Assembly (NCBI GenBank): GCA_002938315.1
Contig: PTLL01000015.1
Span: 1-38,266 of the forward strand
Reading direction: 5' to 3'
Origin: Alphaproteobacteria bacterium MarineAlpha3_Bin2
Lineage (GTDB): Bacteria; Pseudomonadota; Alphaproteobacteria; Rhodospirillales; Casp-alpha2
Length of the DNA: 38,266 nt
Made by a program: the position numbers and the translations under genes. A model generated the notes under the pieces. The model saw nothing but the letters and a program-made list of their open reading frames with translations, was not told where the DNA came from and searched no databases. Position 1 is the stretch's first letter. Each line of letters starts with the position of its first letter. Of this stretch, positions 5,859 through 23,750 are shown piece by piece.

Positions 5859-5869
5859 GGCGATGTCTC

Positions 5870-6784: not shown

Positions 6785-6816
6785 GGCTTCACCTCGTTTG
6801 TAAAAATTCCCACTCC

Positions 6817-6828: not shown

Positions 6829-6857
6829 GTAGCGGCGAAAAGCCCTACAATCGAGGC

Positions 6858-6863: not shown

Positions 6864-6894
6864 CAACGACAAGCACAGAACAGGGAACGCCCCC

Positions 6895-8897: not shown

Positions 8898-9685
8898 CCG
8901 ACCCCATCCTGCTATCCATCGAGGGCACCGTCGCCACGGTGGTTCTAAATAATCCGGATAAGTTGAACGCCATCACCCTTGCCGGTTGGGTGGCCTTGGG
9001 CCAAACCATGACGGCGCTGTCGGACAACGCCGATCTCCGCTGTGTCGTCATCCGGGGGGCGGGCGACAAGGCCTTTTCCGCAGGCGCCGATATTGCCGAA
9101 TTCCCCCAAGTCCGCGCCAATGCGGCCCAGGCCCGGGAGTATGGCGCCGGCGTCGCCGATGCCCTGGCGGCCTTGACCAACTGCATACATCCCGTCGTCG
9201 CCGCCATTCAGGGCGCCTGCACCGGCGGCGGCCTGGAAGTTGCTTGCGGCTGCGATCTCCGCATCAGCAATGCATCCGGGCGGTTCGGGTCGCCCATCAA
9301 CAAGCTTGGCCATTCCTTCGCCTATGACGAGTTGAAGACCGTGCTGGCGGTGGCGAGCCGCGCCTTGATTCTGGAACTGATCCTGGAAGGCCGGATCATG
9401 GATGCTCTGGAAGCGCTCAGCCGGGGGCTGGTCAATCGGGTTGTCGCCGACGCCGAATTCGACAATGAAATTCAGGCCACCACCGCGCGCATCGTCTCCG
9501 GCGCGCCGTTGGTCAGCCGGACAACGAAAAAATTTCTTCGCCGTATTGTTGGCCCCGGGGCCGACCCCGCGCCCTTGACCCAGGCGGAAATCGACGAAGG
9601 CTATGCGCTCTGTGACAGTAAGGATTACGCCGAGGGCATGCGCGCTTTCCTGGCCAAGCAAAAACCGACGTTTGAAGGCCGCTAG
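8894..9685 (+). CDS. Enoyl-CoA hydratase/isomerase (crotonase) family protein
   Basis: This is a 263-residue crotonase-fold protein. The CoA-binding and oxyanion-hole segments are AFSAGADIAEF (residues 60-70) and IQGACTGGGLEVA (105-117). The residue equivalent to rat crotonase Glu144 falls in GSPINKLG and is not glutamate, while a glutamate is retained in the later LILELILEG helix near Glu164. Simple syn-hydration is therefore doubtful, and isomerase, hydrolase or C-C lyase chemistry on an acyl-CoA is more likely. It overlaps the dehydrogenase upstream by ATGA. Its stop codon overlaps that of the convergent broken dehydratase gene. Confidence 0.88.
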   Translation: MTDPILLSIEGTVATVVLNNPDKLNAITLAGWVALGQTMTALSDNADLRCVVIRGAGDKAFSAGADIAEFPQVRANAAQAREYGAGVADALAALTNCIHPVVAAIQGACTGGGLEVACGCDLRISNASGRFGSPINKLGHSFAYDELKTVLAVASRALILELILEGRIMDALEALSRGLVNRVVADAEFDNEIQATTARIVSGAPLVSRTTKKFLRRIVGPGADPAPLTQAEIDEGYALCDSKDYAEGMRAFLAKQKPTFEGR

Positions 9686-10847
9686 TCCTTTACCGGCGAC
9701 TGAAAAAGATTATTGAGTTCGGCGCGGGTTTCAAGCCCAATGCCGGGAGCATCGGGCGGTCGAATATGCCCGTCTTCGATGACGGCGTCATCGGAAAATC
9801 CGCCGAAGGGTTGGAAATTGTGGACATTGGCCTCGCTGCCGCCAAGGCCCAACGCCGCAACCACGTGCAGCGCGAACAAGTGCCCCCCATGGGGTTGAAA
9901 CGCGCGCCGGGAAAATCCGTGGCTTTCCCTCACGTCAATGATGCGCAGGTACTCGGACAAGCCATAGCAGTGCACAGGGTCGAACAGAAAAACGTCGTGG
10001 TCCCCTCGGAGCCCCCCGTGCAGCATCAGGTTTCTGGCATCGGCGGCGGAGAATTAGGCTTCGCCGGCGGCGATGGGCGGCGCATAGACATTGGCGACGG
10101 CTGCCAGGGTCTCAAAATCCAGGGGGTCGCAGATGTCTTCGAACCATCTCAGCCCGAAAGGCTGCAATGCAGCCGCCGCTGCCAATCCGGATTCCCGGTC
10201 ATAACGGTACATAGCGTCAACCGCGAGGTGTCCGCCGTTCGGCAAAAGAGCCAGGACCGTCTCGATCCTCTTGAGGTCTTCTTGTAGCGGAGAGAAGCCA
10301 ATCTTGATCTTTATATGGGTAAACCCATGGTCTAGGAGTTGGCGGATTTCCTCTTCAAGCTTGGCAAGCTCGTCGGACGGATAGATATAGCCGCCGCTGG
10401 CGTATACCGGCACCGGGCCCGGTGTGGCGTCCCGTCCCGTCATTTCCCCGATCAACCGGTAAAGCGGTAGCCCGGCGATTTTGGCCGCCGCGTCCCAAAT
10501 CGCCATGTCCAGGGTGCCGACGGCGACACACCGAACCCCGTGTCCGCCCGGTTTTTCGCCCGCCATCTGCAAGCCCAGGCTTTGAAAGGGTCGATCGTGT
10601 CACCGCCTTCGGTGCTCAAATCGTCTCTGCTCCCCGCCAACAGCCGCGGTGAAAAACGGTCCCGGATCAGGCCCGCCTGTCCATAGCGGCCGATCGATGA
10701 AAAACCGAAGCCGACCACCGGGGCGCCGTCCCGCTGGACATCCGTCACCACCGCCACGATGGAAGTGTCGAGCCCGCCGGAGGGAATCGACGGATCGGCG
10801 TATCGGGAAATGGGGACGGTGCGTTCACGGTTTTCTTTGATATGCAT
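9682..10847 (-). pseudogene. Broken mandelate racemase/muconate lactonizing (enolase superfamily) dehydratase
   Basis: Similarity to acid-sugar/tartrate-type dehydratases of about 390 residues runs over the whole span but in two frames. The N-terminal part (MHIKENRERTVPISRYADP and onward) reads from 10847 to about 10580. A one-base shift then moves the match to the frame reading MAGEKPGGHGVRCVAVGTLD. That frame keeps the K-x-K motif (HIKIKIGF), the metal ligands in LAVDAMYRYD and WFEDICDP, and the third acidic ligand in AAGE. It then meets an in-frame TAA at 10054-10052, where the family has GENLFS. After the stop the same frame continues through FSAADARNLMLHGG to GIGLETRAELNNLFQSPVKD. Two independent lesions argue for a true pseudogene, though sequencing error at the frameshift cannot be excluded. 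Confidence 0.85.
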
Positions 10848-10867
10848 GGAAAGGATGGTTTCCGGTG

Positions 10868-10879
10868 TTTGAATACAAT
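10868..10879. promoter_or_regulatory. Candidate operator TTTGAATACAAT
   Basis: This sequence matches the palindrome ATTGTATACAAT (perfect at 23671) in 10 of 12 positions. It lies in the 129-base divergent region between the broken dehydratase and the long catabolic operon beginning at 10977. A very AT-rich stretch (ATATTATAAA, 10881-10890) follows and may contain a -10 element for either direction. Weaker than the other two copies. Confidence 0.35.
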
Positions 10880-10976
10880 GATATTATAAACCCATAACCG
10901 TTCATGGACCCAATCCTCGGCAAAGTATGAACGCCGATGATGGGGCCAGACAAGCATTTCGGGGGGATTAACACCG

Positions 10977-11834
10977 ATGGGTCAGACCGACAAATTGCGC
11001 GCCCTATTGGCCGAAGAGGGGGCCTTGGTGCTGCCCGGCTGTTTCGATGCGCTGACGGCGCGACTGATCGAACGGGCCGGGTATTCGGGCGCCTTCATGG
11101 GCGGGTTTGCGGTATCGGCGTCGCGCCTGGGCGCGCCGGACACCGGGCTGATTTCCTATTCCGAAATGCTGGACCAGGGCCGCAACATCTGTTCCGCCGT
11201 CGATTTCCCCGTCATTGGCGACGGGGACACCGGGTATGGCAACGCCGTCAACGTGCAGCGCACGGTTAAGGGCTATGCCGACGCCGGCTTCGCCTGCGTG
11301 ATGATCGAAGACCAGGTATCACCGAAGAAATGCGGCCACACCCAAGGCAAGCAGATCGTCAGCCGCGACGAGGCGTTTTCCCGTATCCAGGCCGCCGTCG
11401 ATGCCAGAGAAGCCGGTGCGAATATCCTGATTATGGCCCGCACCGACGCCAACGCTACCGACGGCATGGACGAAGCGATACTGCGGGCACGCACCTTTGC
11501 CGACATCGGCGCCGATATCACCTTCCTGGAAGCGCCGAACACTATTGAGGAAATGACGGCATATTGCGATGGCGTGCCGGGGCCGAAAATGGCCAATATG
11601 GTCGAAGGTGGCGAAACCCCGTTTTTGCCGCCCGAACAGTTGGCTGAAATCGGCTACAAGGTCATCATTTACCCGATTTCATTGATGCTGGCCGGGCTCC
11701 AGGTGATGGAAGACGCGCTGGCGTCGATCAAGGGCGGTAGCCATCCGGATAACCTGGCCGGGTTCGGGCATCTCCGCGATGTCGTCGGCTTCCCGGAATA
11801 CTACGACGTTGAAAAGCAATACACGACTGATTGA
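10977..11834 (+). CDS. Isocitrate lyase/PEP mutase superfamily lyase (2nd copy; methylisocitrate/dimethylmalate lyase-like)
   Basis: This is a 285-residue TIM-barrel lyase. It has GDGDTGYGNAVNV (81-93) as Mg2+ loop and KKCGH at 117-121, the motif with the catalytic cysteine. The N-terminal SGG substrate loop of PrpB is replaced by GAFMGGFAVSASRLGAPDTG (39-58), so the substrate differs from that of the copy at 5870-6784. Known relatives include 2-methylisocitrate lyase, 2,3-dimethylmalate lyase and oxaloacetate decarboxylases. Lyases of this type split a 2-hydroxy diacid or triacid to pyruvate (or glyoxylate) plus an acid. It opens the long plus-strand run ending at 22176 and is followed 52 bases later by MmgE/PrpD, the same pairing as in methylcitrate-cycle operons. 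Confidence 0.88.
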   Translation: MGQTDKLRALLAEEGALVLPGCFDALTARLIERAGYSGAFMGGFAVSASRLGAPDTGLISYSEMLDQGRNICSAVDFPVIGDGDTGYGNAVNVQRTVKGYADAGFACVMIEDQVSPKKCGHTQGKQIVSRDEAFSRIQAAVDAREAGANILIMARTDANATDGMDEAILRARTFADIGADITFLEAPNTIEEMTAYCDGVPGPKMANMVEGGETPFLPPEQLAEIGYKVIIYPISLMLAGLQVMEDALASIKGGSHPDNLAGFGHLRDVVGFPEYYDVEKQYTTD

Positions 11835-11886
11835 AGGACGCCCCTGGGGCTTCTATGATGGGGCAACGAACCGGGAGGAACCTATT

Positions 11887-13293
11887 ATGACCGACGTTAC
11901 GCGCCGACTTGCCAAATTCGCTGCCGGTATTTCCCATCAATCAATACCGGCAGACGTGATGCAACGTGCCGCCATGCTGGTGATGGACAACGTCGGCATT
12001 GCGCTTCGCGCCCACCATGATGCCCAATCGACACCGGCGCTGGTCAAAGGCGCGACGGTGTTGGGCCTGGATGGCGGCAAATCTGTTGTTATCGGCGACC
12101 GCCGCGGTTTTACGCCGGCCGGCGCGGCGCTGATTAACGGTGCTCAGGCCCATTCCCTGGATTTCGATGACACCCACGCGCGTTCTTCGCTTCATCCTAG
12201 CGCCCCCATCGTCCCGGCGGCGCTGGCGGCGGCGGAAATGACCGGCGCCGATGGTGAAGAACTGATTCCCGCCATCATCGGGGGCTACGAAACGCAAATT
12301 CGCCTCAGCATGGCGCTGGGGCCATCCGATCACTACGACCGGGGCTTCCATCCGACCGCCACCTGCGGCGTGTTCGGCGCGGCGGCGGCGGCGGGACGGC
12401 TGTTCTGCCTTGATGCCGATCAGATGGCGCTGGCTTTCGGCATCGCCTTGAGCCAATCGGCGGGCTCCATGCAGTTCCTTGTCGATGGCGCCTGGACCAA
12501 GCCGTTTCATGTCGGCCACGCCGCCATGTGCGGGCTGATGGCGGCAACGTTCGCGAAAGAAGGCTACCGCGGCGTCGAAGACGCGTTCGAAGGCCGAGCC
12601 GGATTCTTCCATGCCTACGCGCCCGACCCGGACCCGGCGAAAGCCATCGAGGGCCTGGGCGAGGTCTGGGAAACCATGGCCATCGGCGTCAAACCCTATC
12701 CGTCGTGCCGCTACAGCCACGCGGCCCTGGATGCGCTGATTGAATTGCGCGCCGCCAACGATATAAATCCCGACGACATCGAAGCCGTCGACATCGGCTT
12801 GCCGGAAACCGGCTGGAAAATCATCGGCGACCCGGAAGCCGACAAGCACAATCCCCAAGGCGTCGTCGACGGCCAGTTTTCCATGGCCTTTTGCGCCGCC
12901 GTGGCGTTGCGCGAAGGCGGCCTCGGCTGGGACGATTACGCGCACCATATCGGTAATGCCAAGACACTGGACCTGTGCCGCCGCGTTCGCGCCGCCCCGG
13001 ATCCACAGGCCGAAGCCGAATTCCCCGCCAATCTCTCAGGCGTCGCCAAGGTGACGACGAAAAGCGGCGTATTCGAGGCCTTCGTCGCCATCCCTAAAGG
13101 CGAGCCCGATAATTTTCTAAGCGCCAACGAACTGCGGGCGAAATTCGACACCCTGGTCAGCCCCTATCTGCCCGCCCTCCGGGTCGATGAACTGGCGACG
13201 CGACTGCTGGACATACGTAATGAATCCGACATCAACCAAGTCCTGCGCCTGACCAGACCGGCTCCGGCCGAGGTCGCGGCAGCGGGGGAATAG
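11887..13293 (+). CDS. MmgE/PrpD family protein (2-methylcitrate dehydratase-like), copy 1
   Basis: The start is the ATG at 11887, 8 bases after GGAGG at 11874-11878. An upstream in-frame ATG at 11779 lies inside the previous gene and is rejected. The 468-residue protein has the PrpD all-helical domain (RLAKFAAGISHQSIPADVMQRAA, then INGAQAHSLDFDDTHARSSLHPSAPI near residue 80) and the second alpha/beta domain after VKPYPSCRYSHAALDAL. PrpD dehydrates 2-methylcitrate to methylaconitate, and MmgE/PrpD relatives include cis-aconitate decarboxylase (itaconate synthesis) and iminodisuccinate epimerase. It sits directly after a PrpB-like lyase, favouring dehydratase or isomerase action on a methylated tricarboxylate or dicarboxylate. 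Confidence 0.88.
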   Translation: MTDVTRRLAKFAAGISHQSIPADVMQRAAMLVMDNVGIALRAHHDAQSTPALVKGATVLGLDGGKSVVIGDRRGFTPAGAALINGAQAHSLDFDDTHARSSLHPSAPIVPAALAAAEMTGADGEELIPAIIGGYETQIRLSMALGPSDHYDRGFHPTATCGVFGAAAAAGRLFCLDADQMALAFGIALSQSAGSMQFLVDGAWTKPFHVGHAAMCGLMAATFAKEGYRGVEDAFEGRAGFFHAYAPDPDPAKAIEGLGEVWETMAIGVKPYPSCRYSHAALDALIELRAANDINPDDIEAVDIGLPETGWKIIGDPEADKHNPQGVVDGQFSMAFCAAVALREGGLGWDDYAHHIGNAKTLDLCRRVRAAPDPQAEAEFPANLSGVAKVTTKSGVFEAFVAIPKGEPDNFLSANELRAKFDTLVSPYLPALRVDELATRLLDIRNESDINQVLRLTRPAPAEVAAAGE

Positions 13294-13322
13294 ACTTATT
13301 CATAACAACATAAGGATAGAGC

Positions 13323-13841
13323 ATGGTCGCAGAAGCAAAAGAAGTCGGCAAAAACCGCTACCGGGAAAGCTACGGACGCTATCTGGAGGATTTCAAGATC
13401 GGCGATGTCTACGAACACCGTCCCGGACGCACGATATCGGAATCCGACAACACCTGGTTCACGCTGATCACCATGAACCAGCACCCGCTGCATTTCGACG
13501 CCGCCTATGCGGCCACCAGCGAATGGAAGAAGCCACTGGTCAATTCGGCGCTGACGCTGTCCATCGTCACCGGTATGAGCGTGTCAGACATCAGCCAGAA
13601 GGCGATCGCCAATCTGGGATGGGACAAGATCAAGTTGACCGGGCCGGTGTTCGTCGGCGACACCATCTATGCGGAATCCGAAGTCCTGGAAGTGCGCGAA
13701 AGCAAATCGCGGCCGACCCAGGGCATCGTTACTGTCAAGACCACCGGCAAGACGTCCGAAGGGTTGGTGTTCCTGACTTACGAACGATCGGTGCTGATCC
13801 CGAAACGCGACCACGGCGTCGATGACGCGGCGGATTATTAG
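13323..13841 (+). CDS. MaoC-family acyl-CoA hydratase (mesaconyl/itaconyl-CoA hydratase-like)
   Basis: This is a 172-residue hotdog-fold protein. The hydratase-2 motif appears as SDNTWFTLITMNQHPLHFDA (residues 41-60), with the H/D pair around P55-L56-H57. The spacing matches the single-hotdog MaoC clade that hydrates branched dicarboxylyl-CoA esters such as mesaconyl-CoA, in which a THP/QHPLHFD form is usual. It would add water to an enoyl-CoA to give a 3-hydroxy or 2-hydroxyacyl-CoA suitable for a CitE-type lyase. AAGGA precedes the ATG. Its 3' end is caught up in a 55-bp tandem duplication, and the stop codon at 13839-13841 lies in the first copy. Confidence 0.85.
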   Translation: MVAEAKEVGKNRYRESYGRYLEDFKIGDVYEHRPGRTISESDNTWFTLITMNQHPLHFDAAYAATSEWKKPLVNSALTLSIVTGMSVSDISQKAIANLGWDKIKLTGPVFVGDTIYAESEVLEVRESKSRPTQGIVTVKTTGKTSEGLVFLTYERSVLIPKRDHGVDDAADY

Positions 13842-13915
13842 GCGATGCCGCATCCCGAAACGCGACCACGGCGTCGATGACGCGGCGGATTATTAGGCGA
13901 TGCCGCATCCCGAAA
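13797..13915 (+). repeat. 55-bp tandem duplication across the MaoC/acyl-CoA dehydrogenase junction
   Basis: Bases 13797-13851 are repeated exactly at 13852-13906, and the next nine bases (13907-13915) begin a third copy. The unit covers the last 15 codons of the MaoC gene, its TAG stop and the start codon of the next gene. The ancestral junction was TAG-GCG-ATG with 2-3 bases between genes. The first copy now holds a decoy ATG at 13845 that opens an 11-codon reading ending in TGA at 13880. The true dehydrogenase start is the ATG at 13900. Confidence 0.95.
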
Positions 13916-15063
13916 ACATCACCTCGGCGGAAGACGAAGCGCTGATCCTCGATTCCATCGATCAGTTCCTGGAACGCGACGTCCGGCCCTATGCCCACGA
14001 CCTGGAAGCCGCCGACGAATACCCGCAAGACATCGCCGACAAGCTGGCCGCGCTCGGCATGATGGGCGCCACCATCGCGCCCGAATACGGCGGGTTGGGC
14101 CTGAGCGCCGTCACCTATGCCAAGATCGTCGAGCGGGTATCGGCGGTGTGGATGTCGGTGTCCGGGTTGTTTAACGCGCATTTGATCATGGCCCAGACGG
14201 TGGAACGCGCCGGCACCGAGGAGCAAAAGCAAAAATGGCTGCCCCGGTTCGCCAGCGGCGAATTGTTCGGCGGCATCGCCCTGACCGAGCCCGATTGCGG
14301 TACCGATCTGCAAGGCATCCGTACCAAGGCCACGTTGGACGGCGACGACTATGTCATCGACGGCAACAAAATGTGGATCACCAATTCGGTGAACGGCAAC
14401 ATCCTGGCGGTACTGGTCAAGACCGACCCCAATACGGACCCACCGCATAAGGGGATGAGCCTGATCCTGGCCGAACGGGACAGCGGCTATGAAGCTTTGA
14501 AGCTGGAGAAGCTCGGCTACAAGGGCATCGACACCGGCGAGCTAAGGTTCGACGGCGTCCGGGTGCCGGCGGAAAACCTGATCGGCGGCGAAGAGGGCCG
14601 GGGCCTGCAACAGATTTTGAGCGGCCTGGAACTGGGCCGCATCAACGTCGCGGCGCGCGGCGCCGGCCTGGCCCGGGCGTGTTTGGAAGAAAGCCTGGCC
14701 TACGCGCAAAGCCGCGAGACCTTCGGTAAGCCCATCGCCCAGCATCAATCGATCCAGATTAAGCTCGCCGACATGGCGACCCGGGTCGAAGCGGCGCGGC
14801 TGCTGGTTGACCAGGCCGCCCACGCCTACGATACCGGGCAACGCTGCGACCTGGAGGCCGGCATGGCCAAGCTGTTCGCCACCGAGGCGGCGGTGGAAAA
14901 TTCCATGGAGGCGATGCGCATTCACGGCGCCTACGGCTATTCCAAGGAATTCAATATCGAACGCTATTACCGCGACGCGCCGTTGCTGGCCATCGGCGAG
15001 GGCACCAACGAGCTGCAGCGCATCATCATCGCGCGGCAATTGGTAGAGCGGAATCCGGTGTGA
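13900..15063 (+). CDS. Acyl-CoA dehydrogenase
   Basis: This is a 387-residue FAD enzyme with the three usual domains. The first is an N-terminal helical domain (to about residue 120). The central beta domain contains GIALTEPDCGTDLQGIRT and DGNKMWITNS, the FAD/substrate signature. The C-terminal helical domain contains RETFGKPIAQHQSIQIKLAD and IHGAYGYSKEFNIERYYRDA. The catalytic base is E367 in IGEGTNELQ, at the short-chain/glutaryl-CoA dehydrogenase position. The GYSKE and GEGTNE forms resemble glutaryl-CoA and methylsuccinyl-CoA type enzymes as much as SCAD. It would insert a double bond whose product the adjacent MaoC hydratase could hydrate. Electrons go to ETF. Its start was duplicated together with the MaoC end. 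Confidence 0.92.
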   Translation: MPHPENITSAEDEALILDSIDQFLERDVRPYAHDLEAADEYPQDIADKLAALGMMGATIAPEYGGLGLSAVTYAKIVERVSAVWMSVSGLFNAHLIMAQTVERAGTEEQKQKWLPRFASGELFGGIALTEPDCGTDLQGIRTKATLDGDDYVIDGNKMWITNSVNGNILAVLVKTDPNTDPPHKGMSLILAERDSGYEALKLEKLGYKGIDTGELRFDGVRVPAENLIGGEEGRGLQQILSGLELGRINVAARGAGLARACLEESLAYAQSRETFGKPIAQHQSIQIKLADMATRVEAARLLVDQAAHAYDTGQRCDLEAGMAKLFATEAAVENSMEAMRIHGAYGYSKEFNIERYYRDAPLLAIGEGTNELQRIIIARQLVERNPV

Positions 15064-15102
15064 GGCGGGACGTCCGCCTTTAACTGAGGACCGAACACAG
15101 CC

Positions 15103-16359
15103 ATGAACCCGCAATCTGATCACCGCCGCCAGGTGACCGTTATCGGCGCCGGTATCGTCGGTATCTCCTGCGCGCTCAATCTGCTGCGCGATGGCCACGA
15201 TGTCACCGTTGTCGACCGGGTGCCGCCGGGCGAGGGTTGCTCGCGGGGTAATGCCGGGTTGTTTTCCAGCGATTCTTTCGTGCCGCTGTCGTTGCCCGGA
15301 ACCCTCAGGAAAGTTCCGGGATGGCTGCTGGACCCGTTAGGGCCGCTGGCGATCCGCTGGCGCCACGCGCCGAGGCTGCTGCCCTGGCTGATCCGTTTTG
15401 TTCTCGCCGGCCGGCCCGATCGGGTCAAGGCGATTTGCGACGCCCTGGAGCCGCTGTTGGATTCCTCGCTGGAGCATCACCTGGCGCTGGCGAAAGGCAC
15501 CGAGGCCGAAGGCCTGATCCGGTCAGAAGGCTGCATGTACGTTTACGAGGATGCCAAGTCGCTGGCCGATGAAGCCAAATCCTGGGATCTGCGCCAGGCC
15601 CGCGGCACGATTGTGGAGAAGCTCAACGCCGCCCAAATTCGCGAACGCGAACCGGCCTTGGCGCCGATCTTTGAGCACGGATATTATGTCTCCAATGTCG
15701 GCCATACGGTGGAACCCATGTTGTTGGTCAAAGGCCTGGCCAAGTATTTCGCACAATCCGGCGGGGTCATCCTTCAGCGCGAGGTTCGGTACATCGAGAT
15801 CGGGCCGGAAGGCCCCAGCCGGTTGATCACCGACGGCGATGATCTCGACATTGATGTCTTGGTCATCGCTGCCGGGGCGTTTTCCAACCGATTGACCGCC
15901 GGGCTGGGCAGCCCGGTGCCGTTGGAAGGGGAGCGGGGGTATCACGTTACCATTGCCAATGCGGGCATCCCCCTCAATATGCCGGTGTTCGCCAACACCT
16001 ATAAATTCATCGCCACGCCGATGGCGCCCGGTATCCGCATTGCCGGAACGGCGGAATTCGGCGGCCTCGACGCTGAGCCAAATTTCGCACGTGCGGACGT
16101 ATTGGCGACCCACGCCAAGTGGATGTTTCCCGACATCGATACGTCCGATGTCACAACGTGGTCCGGATTACGGCCGACCCTGCCCGACAGCCTGCCGGTG
16201 ATCGGCCCATCACCGGTTTTCGGAAACCTGTTTTTCGCCTTCGGCCATCAGCACGTCGGCCTCACCGGCGGGCCCCGGACCGGCAAATTAATCGCCGACC
16301 TGGTCGCCGGGCGGGCCCCCAATATGGATATCCGACCGTTCCGCGCTGACCGGTTCTAA
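15103..16359 (+). CDS. FAD-dependent oxidoreductase, D-amino-acid dehydrogenase (DadA)-like
   Basis: The 418-residue protein opens with the FAD-binding loop VTVIGAGIVGISCALNLLRDGHDVTVVDR (GAGIVG at 16-21). It continues with CSRGNAGLFSSDSFVPLSLPG, the DadA-like segment near residue 45. The C-terminus contains WSGLRPTLPDSLPVIG and FAFGHQHVGLTGGPRTGKLIADLV, also diagnostic. DadA enzymes oxidise D-amino acids (or hydroxyproline-type imino acids) to keto acids with electron transfer to the respiratory chain. Related DAO-family proteins act on other amines and 2-hydroxy acids. It sits between the acyl-CoA dehydrogenase and the CoA transferase on the same strand, with a GAGGA upstream of the ATG. 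It could feed a keto or hydroxy acid into the pathway. Confidence 0.88.
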   Translation: MNPQSDHRRQVTVIGAGIVGISCALNLLRDGHDVTVVDRVPPGEGCSRGNAGLFSSDSFVPLSLPGTLRKVPGWLLDPLGPLAIRWRHAPRLLPWLIRFVLAGRPDRVKAICDALEPLLDSSLEHHLALAKGTEAEGLIRSEGCMYVYEDAKSLADEAKSWDLRQARGTIVEKLNAAQIREREPALAPIFEHGYYVSNVGHTVEPMLLVKGLAKYFAQSGGVILQREVRYIEIGPEGPSRLITDGDDLDIDVLVIAAGAFSNRLTAGLGSPVPLEGERGYHVTIANAGIPLNMPVFANTYKFIATPMAPGIRIAGTAEFGGLDAEPNFARADVLATHAKWMFPDIDTSDVTTWSGLRPTLPDSLPVIGPSPVFGNLFFAFGHQHVGLTGGPRTGKLIADLVAGRAPNMDIRPFRADRF

Positions 16360-16442
16360 GGACCTGTTTCTGCGCTTTCTTTCTTAGGACAATCCCTTAC
16401 AATTTATTCTCCCGCCGTTGCAATGGAAACTGGAACCAATCC

Positions 16443-17627
16443 ATGACACTTCCTCTCGAAGGTGTCCGCATTCTGACGGTCGAACAGTACGGTGCCGGCC
16501 CCTTCGGCACCATGTGGCTGGCCGACCAAGGCGCCGAGGTCATCAAGGTCGAGCAGCCGGAAGGGGGCGATTATGCTCGCGTTTTAGGTCCCTATTGGTT
16601 CGACAACGGTGAAAGCCAATGGTTCCACGCCTATAATCGCAACAAGAAAAGCCTGACCCTGGACCTGGAAAGCAGCGACGGCCGGGCGGTGCTGATGGAC
16701 CTAGTGGCATCCGCCGACGCCTTGACGTCGAACCTGCGCGGCGATGTGCCGGAAAAGCTGGGGCTGACCTATGAACACCTGAAAGACGCCAATCCCCAAA
16801 TCGTTTGCGCCCATCTGTCCGCCTATGGCCGTGAAGGGACGCGGGCATCATGGCCCGGCTTCGATTACCTGATGCAGGCGGAAACCGGCTATTTCTCGCT
16901 GACCGGTGATCCCGACAATGAGCCGACCCGGTTCGGGCTGTCGGTGGTCGACCAAATGACCGGCGTCGGGCTAGCCTATGCGGCGCTTGCCGGCATTATC
17001 GGGGCCAGGGACTCGGGTGTGGGCGGCGACTTGGATATCAGTTTGTTCGATGTGGCGCTGTCCAATCTGGGCTATCCGGCAATGTGGTACCTGAACAACG
17101 GACACCTACAGCAACGCTTGGCCCGTTCCGCGCATCCGTCGCTGACCCCGTGCCAGATCTATAAGACCGCCGACGGCTGGATCTATTTGATGTGCAACAA
17201 GGAAAAATTCTGGCCGGTGCTGGCCGCGGCCCTGGGGCATCCGGAATGGGCCGACGATCCGCGTTTCAAGACCTTCAAGGAACGTTTCGAGGCGCGTCCG
17301 CTGATCCAAGACATGCTGGATGAGACGCTGTCGGCCAAAACCACCGCAGAATGGCTGATCGATTTTGCCGGCACCGTGCCGGCATCGCCGATCCTGGATG
17401 TCGGTGAGGCCATGGAAAATCCTTTCGTCAAGGACGAGGGCCGCCTGCAGGATATTGAACTGGAGGGCCATGGCACCTATCGTTACCTGCGCCCGCCGGT
17501 GCAAGCCGCGACCCCGGCGCCGGCCAACCCGGCGCCGAAGCTGGGCGAACATACCGACGATGTGCTGGCCGGTCTGGGTTACGATGAGGTCAAATTGGCG
17601 GCACTTAGGAAAGCAAAGGTGATTTGA
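16443..17627 (+). CDS. CaiB/BaiF family (class III) CoA transferase
   Basis: This is a 394-residue transferase. The N-terminus is PLEGVRILTVEQYGAGPFG, followed by ADQGAEVIKVEQPEGGD, both family hallmarks. The catalytic aspartate that forms the acyl-anhydride is probably D170 in LSVVDQMTG. The C-terminal domain includes SLTPCQIYKTADGWIYLM and a P-rich end region ending KLGEHTDDVLAGLGY. Class III transferases move CoA between carboxylic acids, for example succinyl-CoA to itaconate, mesaconate or citramalate, without an acyl-enzyme thioester. Here it is the only evident CoA-activating enzyme of the cluster, so it probably loads the substrate for the dehydrogenase, MaoC and CitE steps. An 83-base gap precedes it. 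Confidence 0.92.
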   Translation: MTLPLEGVRILTVEQYGAGPFGTMWLADQGAEVIKVEQPEGGDYARVLGPYWFDNGESQWFHAYNRNKKSLTLDLESSDGRAVLMDLVASADALTSNLRGDVPEKLGLTYEHLKDANPQIVCAHLSAYGREGTRASWPGFDYLMQAETGYFSLTGDPDNEPTRFGLSVVDQMTGVGLAYAALAGIIGARDSGVGGDLDISLFDVALSNLGYPAMWYLNNGHLQQRLARSAHPSLTPCQIYKTADGWIYLMCNKEKFWPVLAAALGHPEWADDPRFKTFKERFEARPLIQDMLDETLSAKTTAEWLIDFAGTVPASPILDVGEAMENPFVKDEGRLQDIELEGHGTYRYLRPPVQAATPAPANPAPKLGEHTDDVLAGLGYDEVKLAALRKAKVI

Positions 17628-17629
17628 AT

Positions 17630-18916
17630 ATGGGCCAATCTCAACCCCCGTCTCAATCCATGACACTTTCGGAAAAGATTATCGCCAAGGCCGCAGGGCT
17701 GGACTCGGTCAAACCGGGCGACATCGTCACCTGCGCCGTCGATGTGGCGATGATGCACGATTCCTCTGGGCCCAGGCGGGCTGGAAAAATGCTGGATGAG
17801 TTGGGGGTTCCCATTTGGGACAAGGATAAGCTTGTCGTCATCACCGACCATTACACCAATGATGAGGACCCCAACAGCGTCGAAATCCAGAAGATCACTC
17901 ATGCATGGGTGGCCGAGAAGCAGCTGCCCCATTTCCTGCCCGAACAAGGCATTTGTCATGTGGTGTTGCCGGAAAACGGTTTCCTGAAACCGGGCCTGTT
18001 CTGTGTCGGCGGCGACAGCCATTCGACCACCGCTGGCGCTTTCGGCGCTTTTATGGTCGGCATCGGCGCCACCGAACTGGCTAGCGTGCTGGCGACCGGT
18101 GAAATCTGGGTGCGGGTGCCGGAAACGCTGCGCCTGGATGTATCGGGGTGCTTGTCGGAGGGGGTCGCGGCCAAGGACGTCATTTTAAAGCTTTGCGGCG
18201 ATATCGGCATCATGGGCGCCAATTACATGGTCGTGGAATATGGCGGTGAAGCGGTCAAGGCGATGACCATCGATGAGCGCATGACGCTGACCAACATGGC
18301 CGCCGAATTGGGCGGCAAGACCGGCATCATCGCCCCTGACGAAACCACCGCCCAGTGGCTGGCGGCGACGGCGGCGTCGGGGGTCGATATCAAGACCTGG
18401 CAAGGGGACGCCGACGCCCCGGTGGCGAAGACCATTTCCATGGACGGCACAGCAATTTCCCCGCAGGTGGCGGCGCCGTCGAACCCGGAAAACGCCGCCG
18501 ATGTATCCGAACACGCCGGCACCCCTGTCGGCCAAGCCTATATCGGTGCCTGCACCGGGGCCAAGTTGGATGACCTCAGGATGGCGGCGGCCATCGTCAA
18601 CGGCCGGACCAAGGCCACCGGCACGCGTTTTTTCGTAGCCCCAGGGTCAAACCGCATCCGCGATGCGGCCGCCGATGAGGGAACCCTGAAAATTCTGGAG
18701 GACGCGGGCGCGACCATCCTGCCGACCGGCTGCGGCGGCTGCATCGGGCTCGGCCCGGCCCGGCTGGAAGAAAACATGACCGGCATTTCGTCGACCAACC
18801 GCAATTTTGTCGGCCGCGCCGGGGAAAAATCCTCAAAGCTGTATCTTGGCTCCGCCTATTCGGTCGCCGCCGCCGCCATCACCGGGGAAATCACCGATCC
18901 CCGAGAATTTTTATAG
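17630..18916 (+). CDS. 3-isopropylmalate dehydratase large-subunit (LeuC/HacA)-like aconitase-family protein
   Basis: The ATG at 17630 is preferred because AAGGTGA lies about 8 bases upstream; a TTG at 17624 overlapping the previous stop is the alternative. The 428-residue protein holds the [4Fe-4S] cysteines C308 (GACTG), C368 and C371 (GCGGC). It also has the GGDSHSTTAGAFGAF substrate loop (128-142) and the GIGATEL segment. The family hydrates and dehydrates 2-hydroxy acids: isopropylmalate, homocitrate, citramalate/methylmalate or dimethylmalate. The small subunit follows 10 bases later. No LeuA-type synthase is nearby, so leucine biosynthesis is unlikely and a catabolic isomerase is inferred. 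Confidence 0.92.
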   Translation: MGQSQPPSQSMTLSEKIIAKAAGLDSVKPGDIVTCAVDVAMMHDSSGPRRAGKMLDELGVPIWDKDKLVVITDHYTNDEDPNSVEIQKITHAWVAEKQLPHFLPEQGICHVVLPENGFLKPGLFCVGGDSHSTTAGAFGAFMVGIGATELASVLATGEIWVRVPETLRLDVSGCLSEGVAAKDVILKLCGDIGIMGANYMVVEYGGEAVKAMTIDERMTLTNMAAELGGKTGIIAPDETTAQWLAATAASGVDIKTWQGDADAPVAKTISMDGTAISPQVAAPSNPENAADVSEHAGTPVGQAYIGACTGAKLDDLRMAAAIVNGRTKATGTRFFVAPGSNRIRDAAADEGTLKILEDAGATILPTGCGGCIGLGPARLEENMTGISSTNRNFVGRAGEKSSKLYLGSAYSVAAAAITGEITDPREFL

Positions 18917-18926
18917 GGGAGTTCCT

Positions 18927-19430
18927 ATGAGCGATTCCAACGGGACCGGCCGCGCCTGGGTCTACGGCGATAACATCGACACCGATCAACTGGCGCCGAT
19001 TCATTCCTACAAGAACATGGAGGCCGAGGAAGGCTGCAAGTTTTGCCTGGAGCCGCTGGACCCGAATTTCGCAAGCGCCGTCAAGATCGGCGATATCTTC
19101 GTCGCCGGCAACAATATGGGGATCGGGTCTTCCCGGGAACAAGCGCCGCTGCACTTGAAGCTGTTGGGCATCCGCGCCGTGCTGGCCAAGTCCTTCGCCC
19201 GAATTTTTTACCGTAATACCTTGAATTTCGGGGTCCCGGCACTGGTGTGCGCGGAGGTTGACCGGATTAATACCGGGGACGAGCTGCGCGTCGATGCGCT
19301 CAAGGGCCGGATCGAAAACCTGAACACCGGGGAAACCCTAGAATGTGAGCCGTTGCCCGACCACCTGATGGCGATGATCGCCGATGGTGGGCTGATGCCG
19401 CATCTGAAAAACAAACTGCAACGGGAATAA
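18927..19430 (+). CDS. 3-isopropylmalate dehydratase small-subunit (LeuD/HacB)-like protein
   Basis: The 167-residue swivel-domain subunit starts at the ATG at 18927, which has AGGGGAG six bases upstream. Residues near the N-terminus read VYGDNIDTDQLAPIHSYKNM, the LeuD opening in which the D-T-D contributes to the active site. GIGSSREQAPL (near residue 72) is the substrate-phosphate/carboxylate loop in this family. The specificity loop, HSYKNMEAEE in place of the YLRT (IPMI) or YLRT-like (HacB) sequence, is unusual, so the side chain accepted is probably not isopropyl. It forms the active dehydratase with the LeuC-like subunit immediately upstream. Confidence 0.92.
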   Translation: MSDSNGTGRAWVYGDNIDTDQLAPIHSYKNMEAEEGCKFCLEPLDPNFASAVKIGDIFVAGNNMGIGSSREQAPLHLKLLGIRAVLAKSFARIFYRNTLNFGVPALVCAEVDRINTGDELRVDALKGRIENLNTGETLECEPLPDHLMAMIADGGLMPHLKNKLQRE

Positions 19431-19468
19431 AAGCGTGCAAGTGCAAGTTAATTGGCCGGGCCTCTAGC

Positions 19469-21103
19469 ATGTCTTCCCTTAAATCCGTTGCCGCCGCCGA
19501 TCTCAAGGCGATGATCGTGCGCGGGGATGAATTGGCGTTGTTGGACCTGCGCGAAGAAGGCACCTTCGGCGAGGGCCACCTGCTGTTCGCCGTACCCCTG
19601 CCGCTGAGCCGGCTGGAGCTGATCGTTGATGATTTGGTGCCGCGGCGCGACGTGCCCATTGTGTTGTGCGCCGGCGGCCCGGAAGACGGTGATTTGGTGG
19701 CGCGCGGGGCGGAACGGCTGATGGGCTTCGGCTATTCGGACGTTTCCTTCCTGGAAGGCGGGCTGGCAGGCTGGGCCGCGGCCGGGTTCGAGGTCTTTAG
19801 CGGCGTCAACGTGCCCTCCAAGGCGTTCGGTGAATTCATCGAGGTCAATTTCGAGACCCCGCATATTCCGGCGGCCGAATTGCAGGCCATGAAAGACCGG
19901 GGCGAAGATCTGGTCATCGTCGACAGCCGCCCCATGCCCGAATTCGAAAACATGTCCATTCCCGGCGGCATCGATGTGCCCGGCGCCGAACTGGCGCTCC
20001 GCATTCACGATATCGCGCCCGACCCGGATACCACCATTGTCGTCAATTGTGCCGGGCGGACGCGCTCCATCATCGGCGCCCAATCGCTGATCAACGCCGG
20101 GGTGAAAAATCGCGTCGTGGCGCTCGAAAACGGCACCATGGGCTGGCATCTGGCCGGGCTGGAACTGGCCAGGGGACAAACGCAATCGTTTACGCCGGTG
20201 TCCGACGAAGGCCTCAACCGCGCCCTGGAATGCGCCAAGGGCGTCGCCGCCCGGTTCGAGGTCCCTGAAATCGACATCGCCACGCTGGATAAATGGCGGG
20301 AAGACACGACCCGCACCCTTTATGTGCTCGACGTTCGCGGTCGCCGGGAATATGAGGCCGGCCACTTGGCCGACGCCAGGTGGGCGCCGGGCGGCCAGTT
20401 GGTGCAGGCGACGGACCGCACGGTCGGGGTTAAGGGCGCGCGGTTGGTGCTGGTCGATGACAACGGTGTGCGCGCCACCATGACGGCCTCGTGGTTGATC
20501 CAGATGGGATGGAACGACACCTATGTCCTCAACGATGCGCTGGAAAGCGGGCCGTTGGTCAAGGAATCGCACCAACCGCACGTGTTTGGGCTGGAGGCGG
20601 CTACGCCCGAAACGGTGTCGCCGCATGCGCTTTCGGCCCTCATGGTCGGCGGCGGCGCCATCGTCGTCGATTTGACTGACAGCCGCGATCACCGCAACGG
20701 CCACATCCCCGGCAGCCGTTTCGCCATCCGCGCCAACCTGCCCGGAAACCTCGATGCCATCCCCGACGCTATTTCCGGGGGGGCCAAGATCGTGCTGACC
20801 TCGACCGACGGGGTTCTGGCGCGGCTGGCGGCGGTGGACGCGATATTGTCGGGCCGCGACGTTAAGGTTCTCGACGGCGGCACCGGTGCCTGGGCCGATG
20901 CCGGCCTGCCCTTGGCCACGGGGTTCAAGGATGCCTTGGATGACACGGTGGATGTCTGGTACCGGCCCTATGACCTGGACGAAGGAAACGAGGAAGCCAT
21001 GGAAACCTATTTGACCTGGGAGGTGGGGTTGAGCGACCAGATCGAACGGGACGGCACCACCCGGTTCCGCAATTTTGCTGCCCCCCCGACTGCAAATACG
21101 TAA
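19469..21103 (+). CDS. Four-domain rhodanese-like protein
   Basis: This is a 544-residue cytoplasmic protein with four consecutive rhodanese homology domains, at about residues 1-115, 125-240, 265-365 and 375-480. Domain 1 has C67 in VLCAGGPEDGD and domain 2 has C194 in VNCAGRTRS, so these could carry a persulfide. Domain 3 has VDDNGVRAT and domain 4 has TSTDGVLAR at the active-site loops, with no cysteine. A tail of about 65 residues follows. Rhodaneses transfer sulfane sulfur, for example from thiosulfate to cyanide, thiols or proteins. Its location between an aconitase-type dehydratase and its dehydrogenase suggests a role in Fe-S or thiol chemistry linked to that pathway, or release of sulfur from a sulfur-containing substrate. 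Both are guesses. Confidence 0.88.
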   Translation: MSSLKSVAAADLKAMIVRGDELALLDLREEGTFGEGHLLFAVPLPLSRLELIVDDLVPRRDVPIVLCAGGPEDGDLVARGAERLMGFGYSDVSFLEGGLAGWAAAGFEVFSGVNVPSKAFGEFIEVNFETPHIPAAELQAMKDRGEDLVIVDSRPMPEFENMSIPGGIDVPGAELALRIHDIAPDPDTTIVVNCAGRTRSIIGAQSLINAGVKNRVVALENGTMGWHLAGLELARGQTQSFTPVSDEGLNRALECAKGVAARFEVPEIDIATLDKWREDTTRTLYVLDVRGRREYEAGHLADARWAPGGQLVQATDRTVGVKGARLVLVDDNGVRATMTASWLIQMGWNDTYVLNDALESGPLVKESHQPHVFGLEAATPETVSPHALSALMVGGGAIVVDLTDSRDHRNGHIPGSRFAIRANLPGNLDAIPDAISGGAKIVLTSTDGVLARLAAVDAILSGRDVKVLDGGTGAWADAGLPLATGFKDALDDTVDVWYRPYDLDEGNEEAMETYLTWEVGLSDQIERDGTTRFRNFAAPPTANT

Positions 21104-21114
21104 GGAAATCTATC

Positions 21115-22176
21115 GTGAAAATATTGATTCTGCCCGGTGACGGCATCGGCCCCGAAATTATGGCGGCGACGGTTTCGGCGCTGGAGGCGCTGGACGAAAA
21201 GTTCGGTTTGAAGCTGAACCTGGTCGAACGCGCCATCGGCCTGGCGGCGCATGCAGCCGAAGGCTCGACCCTGTCCGACGCGGTGATGGATGAAATCAAG
21301 GCGTCCGACGGGGTGATCCTGGGCCCCGCCGATACCTATGCCTACCCGCCCCCGGAAGACGGTGGCATCAACCCGTCGGCGACCATCCGCAAGCAATTGG
21401 ACCTGTACGCCAACATGCGCCCGTCCCGCGCCCGCGATGGCGTGCCTTGCCTGACGCCGGCCATGGATTTGGTCATCGCCCGGGAAAACACCGAAGGCTT
21501 TTATGCCGACCGCAATATGTTCCAGGGCTCAGGCGAATTCATGCCGACCGAGGACGTGGCGCTGGCGGTGCGTAAGATCACCCGCCAAGGTTCGCGCCGT
21601 ATCGCCGAGGCCGCCTTTCTATTGGCCAAACGCCGCCGCAAGAAAGTGACGGTGGTGACCAAGGCCAATGTCTTGAAAGTGTCCGAAGGGTTGTTCCTGG
21701 GCGAAGTCCGTGACGTCGCCAAGGCCCATCCGGAGGTGGCACTGGACGAAGTGCTCATCGACGCCATGGCGGCGTTGCTGGTGCGCACGCCTGATGCCTT
21801 CGATGTCGTCGTCACCACCAACATGTATGGCGATATCCTGTCCGACGAAGCCGCCGAGCTTTCAGGCGGCTTAGGCCTCGGCCCGTCGGTCAATGCCGGT
21901 GACGTTCACGGCGTCGCCCAGGCCGCCCACGGCTCGGCGCCGGATATCGCCGGCCTTGGCATCGGCAATCCGGTGGCGCTGATGAATTCGGCGGCGATGT
22001 TGCTGGAATGGCTGGGCGACCGGCACGGCAGGGAGGATTTGATCAAGGCTGCCGTCGCCTTCGATGCCGCCGTCGATACGGTCCTCGCCGATGCCGCCAA
22101 CCACACCCCCGACCTCGGCGGCACCGCAAAGACCGCTCAAGTGGGCGACGCGGTGGTGGCGGAGATCCAGAAATAG
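21115..22176 (+). CDS. Isocitrate/isopropylmalate dehydrogenase-family beta-decarboxylating dehydrogenase
   Basis: A GTG start lies 12 bases after the previous stop, with TAAGGAA upstream. The 353-residue protein opens MKILILPGDGIGPEI. Catalytic and metal residues are visible: R92 and R102 (ATIRKQLDLYANMRP), R123 and Y130 (ARENTEGFY), K183 (VTKANV), D216 (LIDAMA), D240 and D244 (NMYGDILSDEAAELSGGLG). The ENTEG motif is closer to isocitrate and homoisocitrate dehydrogenases than to leucine-pathway LeuB. The HGSAPDIAG loop suggests NAD+ preference. It would oxidise and decarboxylate the 2-hydroxy acid made by the LeuCD-like dehydratase, for example a 3-substituted malate to a 2-keto acid. Confidence 0.9.
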   Translation: MKILILPGDGIGPEIMAATVSALEALDEKFGLKLNLVERAIGLAAHAAEGSTLSDAVMDEIKASDGVILGPADTYAYPPPEDGGINPSATIRKQLDLYANMRPSRARDGVPCLTPAMDLVIARENTEGFYADRNMFQGSGEFMPTEDVALAVRKITRQGSRRIAEAAFLLAKRRRKKVTVVTKANVLKVSEGLFLGEVRDVAKAHPEVALDEVLIDAMAALLVRTPDAFDVVVTTNMYGDILSDEAAELSGGLGLGPSVNAGDVHGVAQAAHGSAPDIAGLGIGNPVALMNSAAMLLEWLGDRHGREDLIKAAVAFDAAVDTVLADAANHTPDLGGTAKTAQVGDAVVAEIQK

Positions 22177-22190: not shown

Positions 22191-23549
22191 TTATTGGGCG
22201 GCGTTGGCCTTGGTCGGCGTCAGTGGCAAGGCGCAAAGGTCGTCGGTTTCATCCAGCCGCCACAGCTGGTCGAGATACGCCGCCGCGCCGTCTTCGCCGA
22301 GTACCGGGTTTGTGATCTCGAGGAATTTGTCCGTCAGTTCGTCGTCGGTTAAGGGATTGTCCGGATCACCCTTGCGGGTCGGTGCATAATGCTCCAGCGT
22401 TTCGCCTTGGGTGGTTTCGATGCTGATTTGGGCGGCGCGGCGCGACGGGAAACCGGCCTCGATGTCGGCATCGACGCTGAGATCGACCTTGGCGATCAAG
22501 TCCCGGAGCTCCCGGTCCTCAAGCAGGTCGGCGGAGAACGCATCCAGGCGGACGCGGCCTTTTTGGATCGCCATGGCGGCGCAATAGGCGAGGGAGAACT
22601 TGGCCTCGAAGATGGTCTGCGGGTCCATGTTACCGCAAATTTCGTGGGCCTTCTGGAAGCTGCCGACGCGGATTTTGGCGATGTCTTCGGGCTTGAGGTC
22701 ATGTTCTGCCCGCAACGCCAACACCCCATCGATGGCGGCGTGGGTATGGCCGCAGGCGGCGTGATTCTTAAACGTCATCCGCTCGATGGTGAACGATGTG
22801 TCCAATGCATCGGCGGCGGCGTTCCAATCCGGGTTGTTGCACATGGCGGCGCCGAAGCCGCGTTCGCCTTCCAGAATATCGATGACCCCGGTGACGCCCT
22901 GTTCCGCCGCCAGCGCCAGGGTGACGCCGGTTTGCGCCGCGTGCGCCGCATGCATGGGCTTGGCCATGGCTTCGCCGCGAAAGGCCTGTTGCAGGCCGGC
23001 GGCCATGGTGCCGGCGTTGGCCATGGCGTGTGCCATGCGGTTGGCGTCCAGGTCTAAGACCGCCGCCGCGCCCGCCGCCGCGCCGAAGGTGCCGATGGTG
23101 GCGGTGGTGTGCCAGTATTCGTAATGGGCCGGGTTGACGGCAACGGCCATGCGGTTGGAGACCTCATACCCGGCGATGACGCTGCGCAAGAAATCCGGAC
23201 CGCCCAAGCCCTTGGCCTGGGCCAGGGCCAACACCGCCGAGATCACCGGTGCGCCGGGGTGGTAGAGGCCGTCACGGTAAATATCGTCGAATTCGATGGT
23301 GTGCGACGCCGCGCCATTAATGAGCGCGGCGGTGCGCGGATCGGTGGTGTGCCCGGACGGATACAACAGGGCCTTGCCGGCACTGTCGGAAAAAGCCTCG
23401 GTCAGCAGCGTCGCCGGCGCCTCAAGCCCGCCCCGCAACGTCGAGGCGAACCAATCGATGACGGCGCGCTTGGCGGCGTGGATGGCGTCTTCCGGCAGAT
23501 CGGTGACCGTCAGCCCGGCGGCGTAATCGGCGAAACGTTGAAGTGCCAT
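22191..23549 (-). CDS. MmgE/PrpD family protein, copy 2
   Basis: The start is the ATG at 23549, preceded by a purine-rich GAGGAAGAGGGAA. A longer reading from 23681 includes unrelated sequence and is rejected. The 452-residue protein has the PrpD opening MALQRFADYAAGLTVTDLPE, INGAASHTIEFDDIYRDGLYHPGAPV near residue 80, and FKNHAACGHTHAAIDGV near residue 275. The motif histidine/aspartate region matches copy 1, but overall divergence is large, so a different substrate (methylcitrate, aconitate or another polycarboxylate) is likely. It is convergent with the dehydrogenase upstream (14-base gap) and followed on the other side by the TcuA-like gene. Its former operon partner survives only as a 3' scrap. 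Confidence 0.88.
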   Translation of the reverse strand: MALQRFADYAAGLTVTDLPEDAIHAAKRAVIDWFASTLRGGLEAPATLLTEAFSDSAGKALLYPSGHTTDPRTAALINGAASHTIEFDDIYRDGLYHPGAPVISAVLALAQAKGLGGPDFLRSVIAGYEVSNRMAVAVNPAHYEYWHTTATIGTFGAAAGAAAVLDLDANRMAHAMANAGTMAAGLQQAFRGEAMAKPMHAAHAAQTGVTLALAAEQGVTGVIDILEGERGFGAAMCNNPDWNAAADALDTSFTIERMTFKNHAACGHTHAAIDGVLALRAEHDLKPEDIAKIRVGSFQKAHEICGNMDPQTIFEAKFSLAYCAAMAIQKGRVRLDAFSADLLEDRELRDLIAKVDLSVDADIEAGFPSRRAAQISIETTQGETLEHYAPTRKGDPDNPLTDDELTDKFLEITNPVLGEDGAAAYLDQLWRLDETDDLCALPLTPTKANAAQ

Positions 23550-23566
23550 TTCCCTCTTCCTCTTCC

Positions 23567-23656
23567 TCAGAATTGTACGTCGTATTGTGTCGGATCGATA
23601 CAGGCTTCGACCAGCAACGGCCGGTTCACGCCGTGGGCGCGGGCGAACACGTCGTT
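23567..23656 (-). pseudogene. 3' remnant of a thiamine-diphosphate-dependent enzyme gene
   Basis: About 29 codons read VFARAHGVNRPLLVEACIDPTQYDVQF and end in TGA, 17 bases before the PrpD start. The P-x-L-x-E-x-x-x-D-P-x-x-Y pattern is the usual C-terminus of acetolactate-synthase or decarboxylase-type ThDP enzymes. Upstream of about 23656 the frame runs into the palindrome and the opposite-strand flavoprotein, with no further match. The spacing to PrpD is typical for an operon, so a larger gene was probably lost by deletion. Short match, so identity is uncertain. Confidence 0.4.
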
Positions 23657-23670
23657 CTGTAACCTGAAAA

Positions 23671-23682
23671 ATTGTATACAAT
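23671..23682. promoter_or_regulatory. Perfect palindrome ATTGTATACAAT, candidate GntR-type operator
   Basis: This is a 12-bp perfect inverted repeat between PrpD copy 2 (minus) and the TcuA-like flavoprotein (plus), about 69 bases before the latter's start. Its core TTGTATACAA is the form bound by many FadR-like GntR repressors. Near copies lie at 6817 and 10868. It is the best of the three sites. Confidence 0.55.
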
Positions 23683-23750
23683 CCGCCAATGCTGGGTCAA
23701 TATTGGGCCCGGAAGATTTGTAACTAGGCTTTTCAAAGGGTGTGGGATCA

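Follow-up and report, generated by a model that had tools for sequence, protein, structure and literature searches.

A conserved gene cluster of a marine alphaproteobacterial family that may serve the catabolism of a branched C5 dicarboxylic acid

We analyzed a run of putative catabolic genes in a 38,266-nucleotide stretch of DNA (the window) from Alphaproteobacteria bacterium MarineAlpha3_Bin2 (assembly GCA_002938315.1, contig PTLL01000015.1). The window is a whole contig (C31) of a 2.27 Mb metagenome-assembled genome (MAG) that is 97% complete; its named close relatives are MAGs of Rhodospirillales or Alphaproteobacteria, and the isolate names point mostly to aquatic samples. A preliminary description had listed a set of enzymes between positions 10977 and 22176, where all genes lie on the forward strand, and a CitE-type lyase further upstream (4203-5075). 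Family scans of the window proteins placed every one of these enzymes, CitE included, where it had been described, and the named enzymes scored far above the Pfam cut-off or near the family models (Table 1). A second PrpB-like lyase (PrpB2, 5870-6784) and a second MmgE/PrpD protein (PrpD2, 22191-23681) adjoin the run, and the likely start of the first MmgE/PrpD protein (PrpD1) is 11890 rather than 11779. The functions proposed below are inferences from protein families, conserved residues, predicted fold and gene neighborhood.

Table 1. Genes in and around the cluster, with window coordinates, strand and the family evidence for each product.
Product	Position	Strand	Remarks
Possible binding-protein end	2-361		Upstream of DppB
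DppB, Dpp-type ABC permease	477-1448	+	BPD_transp_1 domain
DppC, Dpp-type ABC permease	1461-2363	+	
M81/MlrC-like hydrolase	2373-3911	+	MlrC model 167 bits (cut-off 999), a distant relative only; position conserved
CitE-type lyase, candidate (S)-citramalyl-CoA lyase (Ccl-like)	4203-5075	+	Below citE and RipC cut-offs
SDR-family dehydrogenase	5097-5858	-	Conserved next to CitE
PrpB2, 2-methylisocitrate lyase-like	5870-6784	-	393.9 bits (PrpB cut-off 354.4)
TauD/TfdA dioxygenase	6895-7938	+	PF02668; variable presence
D-2-hydroxyacid dehydrogenase (D2HDH)	7935-8897	+	
Enoyl-CoA hydratase family protein (ECH1)	8894-9685	+	
PrpB1, ICL/PEP-mutase-family lyase, candidate 2-alkylmalate lyase	10977-11834	+	KKCGH motif
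PrpD1, MmgE/PrpD, candidate epimerase of a 2-substituted succinate (methylsuccinate isomerase-like)	11890-13293	+	
MaoC hydratase (RipB/Ich-like), candidate mesaconyl-C4-CoA hydratase / itaconyl-CoA isomerase-hydratase	13323-13841	+	172 aa
Acyl-CoA dehydrogenase (ACAD), candidate 2-substituted succinyl-CoA dehydrogenase	13900-15063	+	
DadA-like FAD oxidase	15103-16359	+	PF01266
Class III (CaiB) CoA transferase, candidate itaconate/methylsuccinate CoA transferase (Ict-like)	16443-17627	+	PF02515, 365.6 bits
LeuC/HacA-like large subunit	about 17624-18916	+	Over cut-off of aconitase/IPMD family model
LeuD/DmdB-like small subunit	18921-19430	+	TIGR02087, 172 bits (cut-off 108.95)
Four-domain rhodanese protein	19469-21103	+	PF00581, four stretches
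IDH/IPMDH-family beta-decarboxylating dehydrogenase	21115-22176	+	PF00180; under every equivalog cut-off
PrpD2, second MmgE/PrpD	22191-23681	-	Methylsuccinate-isomerase type by tree
TcuA-like FAD dehydrogenase	23742-25238	+	589.5 bits (cut-off 369); occasionally adjoins cluster

A MaoC match was present in 38 of 61 genomes, the source genome included, and we compared the loci of 29 genomes from 11 genera of the family. Many of these MAG contigs are broken, so the gene counts are minima; locus counts are based on tblastn only, longest-open-reading-frame calling having given antisense false clusters in GC-rich loci. Orthologues with 50-94% identity recur in the order [TauD]-D2HDH-ECH1-PrpB1-PrpD1-MaoC-ACAD-CaiB, with PrpB2 transcribed divergently, and in a subset of the genomes LeuC-LeuD-rhodanese-IDH often follow CaiB. 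Order and strand are kept in many genomes, including single-contig assemblies (G015, G026 and G027), and the run is therefore not a chance arrangement. This bears out the earlier view that the genes belong together; the lack of conservation that had been named as its refutation is not what other genomes display. The core genes are the most frequent (PrpD1 25, MaoC 28, ACAD 26 and CaiB 24 of the 29 genomes), followed by those on the flank (ECH1 21; PrpB1, PrpB2 and D2HDH 19 each, D2HDH in 9 genera) and by the tail and CitE (LeuC 13, CitE 12, IDH 11, rhodanese 8); the TauD/TfdA dioxygenase was found in 8 and TcuA in 2. A search with CitE and its surroundings found dppB-dppC-M81-CitE directly upstream of the run in 8 genomes from 4 genera of the family, and the conserved locus thus extends over about 477-22176. 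The run first described is conserved, but the unit reaches farther upstream and CitE belongs inside it. CitE orthologues are 51-85% identical in the fetched family loci and lie in the same locus in most. DadA, PrpD2 and an MFS gene were each absent from all 29 genomes and are local to the source genome. The DadA-like oxidase does lie in the run, as had been noted, but it is probably an insertion outside the pathway, and we rejected it as a pathway step on the strength of this distribution. As a side observation, extra partial MaoC copies adjoin the full one in two contigs (G005:C132 and G006:C192, loci L008 and L010), as after repeated duplication or insertion.

The CoA transferase, MaoC hydratase and CitE lyase had been recognized as parts of the itaconate/mesaconate type, with which our scans agree. 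The further claim that the set matches neither standard pathway overlooked a five-gene itaconate/methylsuccinate cluster (PMC12290011; PMC9875883). Work published in 2025 on Cupriavidus necator and Pseudomonas aeruginosa identified the ACAD of the itaconate cluster as a methylsuccinyl-C4-CoA dehydrogenase and its MmgE/PrpD protein as an (S)-(R)-methylsuccinate isomerase; both feed the CoA transferase, hydratase and citramalyl-CoA lyase encoded with them in the cluster ich-mcd-mmgE-ict-ccl (PMC12290011). Gene deletions in engineered Pseudomonas putida agree with this route (PMC9875883). All five functions are encoded in 4203-17627 of the window and kept together in the family. For identity comparisons we used the plasmid cluster of Marinobacter sp. 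M3C (locus L179) as a stand-in for the characterized Pseudomonas/Cupriavidus type, because it has the P. aeruginosa gene order and a PrpD with the exact published residue spacing. The window resembles this type in its five functions, in its class III CoA transferase (as in the stand-in), in its isomerase residues and in its CitE lyase. Catalytic residues are in place in the ACAD (the canonical Glu in GEGT; closest solved relative annotated FadE3) and in CaiB (the Asp in SVVDQ). MaoC has RipB/Ich (NF038241) as its best NCBIfam model and is 55% identical to an annotated Paraburkholderia RipB, with which it shares the motif TMNxxxxH.

PrpD1 carries the residues expected of an isomerase. H88, D91, H102, Y149, H154, K204 and K268 are invariant over 24 orthologues and align with H88, E91, H102, Y148, H152, K202 and K266 of methylsuccinate isomerase, with Asp replacing Glu at position 91 and the Tyr-His spacing shifted by one residue. 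When aligned to the sequences of solved structures, the PrpD1 Tyr coincides with that of iminodisuccinate epimerase, whereas cis-aconitate decarboxylase has no Tyr there. The AlphaFold model of PrpD1 (pLDDT 88.6) best matches iminodisuccinate epimerase (Z 42.2, 2.5 Å over 430 residues), followed by cis-aconitate decarboxylase (Z 39.9) and methylcitrate dehydratases (Z 31-35); Foldseek placed a Bacillus IRG1-like protein level with iminodisuccinate epimerase. For PA0881, too, this epimerase has been published as the best match in structure (PMC9875883). In a midpoint-rooted MmgE/PrpD tree, the PrpD1 clade joins the isomerase clade (support 0.999), and PrpD2 falls inside the latter with isomerase-type proteins of CH34 and Marinobacter (support 0.997). 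Residues, model and tree make PrpD1 a candidate epimerase of the methylsuccinate isomerase kind. A cis-aconitate decarboxylase, forming itaconate from a TcuA route, was rejected as first choice on account of the epimerase Tyr and the best structural match, a Z gap of only 2.3 being weak support.

The co-occurrence of PrpB and PrpD proteins with a LeuCD-type hydratase could also suggest a methylcitrate cycle for propionate, with methylisocitrate lyase, methylcitrate dehydratase and methylaconitate hydratase activities, and PrpB2 does exceed the PrpB cut-off. Such a cycle is very improbable here. No methylcitrate synthase scored over the cut-off in the 97% complete genome, whose sole citrate synthase reaches 330.3 bits (TIGR01800 cut-off 421.3), and both MmgE/PrpD proteins fall far under the two PrpD equivalogs (PrpD1, 53.6 and 26 bits; PrpD2, 63.3 and 33.3 bits; cut-offs 950 and 575). 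Because of these scores, we conclude that the locus is not a methylcitrate cycle. The PrpD1 model is moreover structurally nearer to an epimerase, and the cycle has no role for CaiB, ACAD or MaoC. The PrpB/PrpD pair of the preliminary description is thus real as a pair of genes, but it is not the methylcitrate pair.

On balance, we consider it likely, by analogy with the characterized clusters, that the locus serves to break down a branched dicarboxylic acid with five carbons. Methylsuccinate and/or itaconate/mesaconate are the most likely substrates, a close 2-substituted succinate being a possible variant. We favor this reading because the five functions occur together, the same set recurs in independent clusters, PrpD1 has the residues and model described, MaoC is of the RipB/Ich kind and a methylcitrate synthase over cut-off is missing. 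The observations behind it are the gene content, conservation and family assignments of the locus and the catalytic residues and predicted fold of PrpD1; the five reactions have been shown elsewhere for distantly related proteins and would apply here by analogy. The substrate, the order of the steps, the role of the transporter and the side routes are our inference. Uptake would perhaps proceed via the DppBC ABC system. PrpD1, with His and Tyr as its two catalytic bases, would interconvert the free acid's enantiomers, CaiB would put CoA on C4, and ACAD would form an enoyl ester of the mesaconyl-C4-CoA type. MaoC, which could also isomerize itaconyl-CoA, would hydrate this ester to citramalyl-CoA, to be split by CitE into acetyl-CoA and pyruvate. 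LeuCD, the IDH-like protein, PrpB1/PrpB2 and D2HDH may provide side routes for free acids, for example from citraconate or citramalate via 3-methylmalate to 2-oxobutyrate, or from an alkylmalate to pyruvate and a carboxylate. The core chemistry is probably of a known kind, the enzyme set being new and a family-specific extension added to it.

Several findings weigh against a methylsuccinate- or itaconate-type function. Identity to the Marinobacter enzymes is low for ACAD (32%) and for CaiB (31% to Ict), and the 172-residue, RipB-like MaoC has no BLASTP match at E 1e-10 to the Marinobacter Ich of about 275 residues. PrpD1 scored 249 bits on an approximate hidden Markov model (HMM) built from two isomerase-type members (self scores 960-973), and the published isomerase cut-off is 550 on the authors' own HMM, which makes the comparison an approximate one (PMC12290011). 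MaoC also stands without any of five tested partners in 26 of 141 loci gathered from a wider range of genomes, so the function may vary within its clade. Some family genomes have LeuCD without IDH or the reverse; the two need not be consecutive steps, which weakens the proposed side route.

The other core proteins are about as far from the Pseudomonas type (PrpD1 34% and CitE 33% identical to Marinobacter), and none of the core members tested reaches a curated cut-off. The window also differs from this type by its added LeuCD, IDH, PrpB and D2HDH genes and by keeping the Glu in GEGT of the ACAD. The Marinobacter Mcd (L179, 5828-6988) has APIST at this column; lacking the usual catalytic Glu there, its base must lie elsewhere. 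The short RipB-family MaoC and the CitE-type lyase recall ripABC of the Yersinia pestis type, but the window has a CaiB class III (PF02515) rather than a RipA-type CoA transferase, adds ACAD and PrpD, and scores under the RipB and RipC cut-offs with MaoC (238.7 against 340 bits) and CitE (NF038242, 169.2 against 375 bits). CitE is 31-39% identical to Ccl, RipC and CitE of related clusters. Closer proteins are found in uncharacterized clusters with MaoC, ACAD, CaiB, CitE and, in most, PrpD from Azospirillum (MaoC-PrpD-ACAD-CaiB plus CitE), Caballeronia, Pseudosulfitobacter and Variovorax, to which MaoC is 59-66%, ACAD 60-68% and CaiB 47-58% identical (29% in Pseudosulfitobacter). The plasmid clusters of the first three are the closest relatives beyond the family (ACAD 65-68%; CaiB 57-58% apart from Pseudosulfitobacter, 57% in Azospirillum); no LeuCD, IDH or PrpB was seen adjoining them, and that of Pseudosulfitobacter carries TRAP dicarboxylate transporters. 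Unannotated plasmid stretches of Cupriavidus metallidurans, C. necator C39, Paraburkholderia and Burkholderia arboris were read via tblastn. Given the 31-34% identity to the Pseudomonas type, the different MaoC and these closer clusters with the same set, we read the core as a third, parallel lineage of the itaconate/methylsuccinate module, a reading from identity and architecture rather than from a dated phylogeny covering the five proteins. The PrpD of the three plasmid clusters is of another subtype that lacks the catalytic Tyr, and the subtypes may therefore differ in function. In Azospirillum and relatives (L164, L167, L168 and others), H-Q, H-H or H-K stands in place of the isomerase H-Y, and this PrpD may have a further MmgE/PrpD activity.

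The module is not confined to the family. Of 385 genomes sampled from the class, 63 have a MaoC of the window type, and relatives are encoded by at least 591 GTDB contig stretches, including records labelled Gammaproteobacteria, Betaproteobacteria and SAR324. The 141 distinct loci were gathered via MaoC and are silent on loci without it; neighbors in them were ACAD (100 loci), CaiB (69), PrpD of the window subtype (46) or of the other subtype (15) and CitE (22). Very small genomes of about 1.4 Mb in the class (G329, G108, G233 and G405) also carry the window-type MaoC; in the one locus fetched from them (L079, G329) the partners do not adjoin it. Window-type LeuC, PrpB1 and IDH are almost confined to the window's family in the MaoC-gathered loci, and beyond it only the PrpD-MaoC-ACAD-CaiB part is kept. 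This distribution, together with the separate absence of LeuCD and of IDH in some genera, would fit two or more unrelated neighboring operons, a CoA-dependent module beside a separate LeuCD/IDH/PrpB/D2HDH set. In 8-9 genera, however, PrpB1, D2HDH and ECH1 remain linked to the module, as accidental neighbors would not, and we hold such a division of the locus to be possible but doubtful.

Among the accessory enzymes, PrpB1 (258.9 bits) is under the PrpB cut-off of 354.4, has an invariant K-[KR]-CGH in its orthologues and is closest among solved structures to petal death protein (200.7 bits), which cleaves 2-alkylmalates. The best solved match of LeuD is the small subunit of isopropylmalate/citramalate isomerase (3vba). 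The IDH-like protein comes nearest to homoisocitrate dehydrogenase. From a hand alignment to Escherichia coli IDH numbering, we take the protein's conserved N-x-S to be at the positions that bind the gamma-carboxylate of isocitrate. Separate LeuC and LeuB-like homologues lie about 2 kb apart elsewhere in the genome (contig C47), and LeuCD and IDH of the window are therefore not the leucine pathway. The same chemistry could act on another 2-substituted succinate, such as an alkylsuccinate with a longer chain or a carboxylated analogue like tricarballylate, with LeuCD, the IDH-like protein and the PrpB lyases handling the matching tricarboxylate or alkylmalate. The low identity to enzymes of the characterized type, the nearby TcuA over its cut-off, the N-x-S and the relationship of PrpB1 to petal death protein all speak for this, but TcuA is in the loci of only 2 of the 29 family genomes, LeuD shows no conservation where homoaconitase has Arg26 and the product logic of CitE is simplest for C5 acids. 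We therefore regard another substrate as rather unlikely and retain a C5 diacid as the preferred one. The Arg26-type specificity loop was dropped as a substrate clue, being uninformative when not conserved. The likeness to nicotinate fermentation (DmdAB and dimethylmalate lyase) that had been pointed out holds for membership in the LeuD/DmdB subfamily and the ICL/PEP-mutase family and goes no further than the family level. TIGR02087 also holds biosynthetic members, no methyleneglutarate mutase or methylitaconate isomerase was found among the window proteins scanned, and the case from sequence for a nicotinate route is weak. More tentatively, the locus may represent a third, separately assembled methylsuccinate-type lineage, widespread in aquatic Proteobacteria. 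One marine alphaproteobacterial family would have added to it the LeuCD/IDH branch and lyases of the ICL family, giving a new route for a 2-substituted succinate or an alkylmalate that has so far not been recognized as a growth substrate.

Methylsuccinate use has been described mainly from Beta- and Gammaproteobacteria, and the published model found only 78 alphaproteobacterial isomerases (PMC12290011); it would probably miss the lineage of the window. Literature searches for a form of the pathway in Alphaproteobacteria and for citramalate lyase turned up nothing relevant. If the proposed function is right, bacteria of water and soil would use branched C5 diacids as a carbon source more generally than has been recorded, and a testable role could be assigned to many genes labelled MmgE/PrpD, CaiB or MaoC.

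Other genes in and around the locus deserve mention. A multi-domain rhodanese on the Marinobacter sp. M3C plasmid (L179, 12279-13895), which shares 35% identity with the rhodanese of the window over 535 residues, adjoins the Pseudomonas-type methylsuccinate cluster; a sulfur-handling rhodanese thus recurs next to two versions of the module. A link to microcystin or methylaspartate via the M81 gene was dropped in view of its MlrC score and the lack of conservation of DadA. Between ECH1 and PrpB1, on the reverse strand (9690-10840), lies an enolase-superfamily frame, mandelate racemase-like by eye, with at least one frameshift, stops in frame from 9690 and an open piece at 10054-10572; it is either a pseudogene or an assembly error. 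Farther downstream, the reverse strand encodes a fused HyuA/HyuB hydantoinase/oxoprolinase of 1218 residues (32659-36315).

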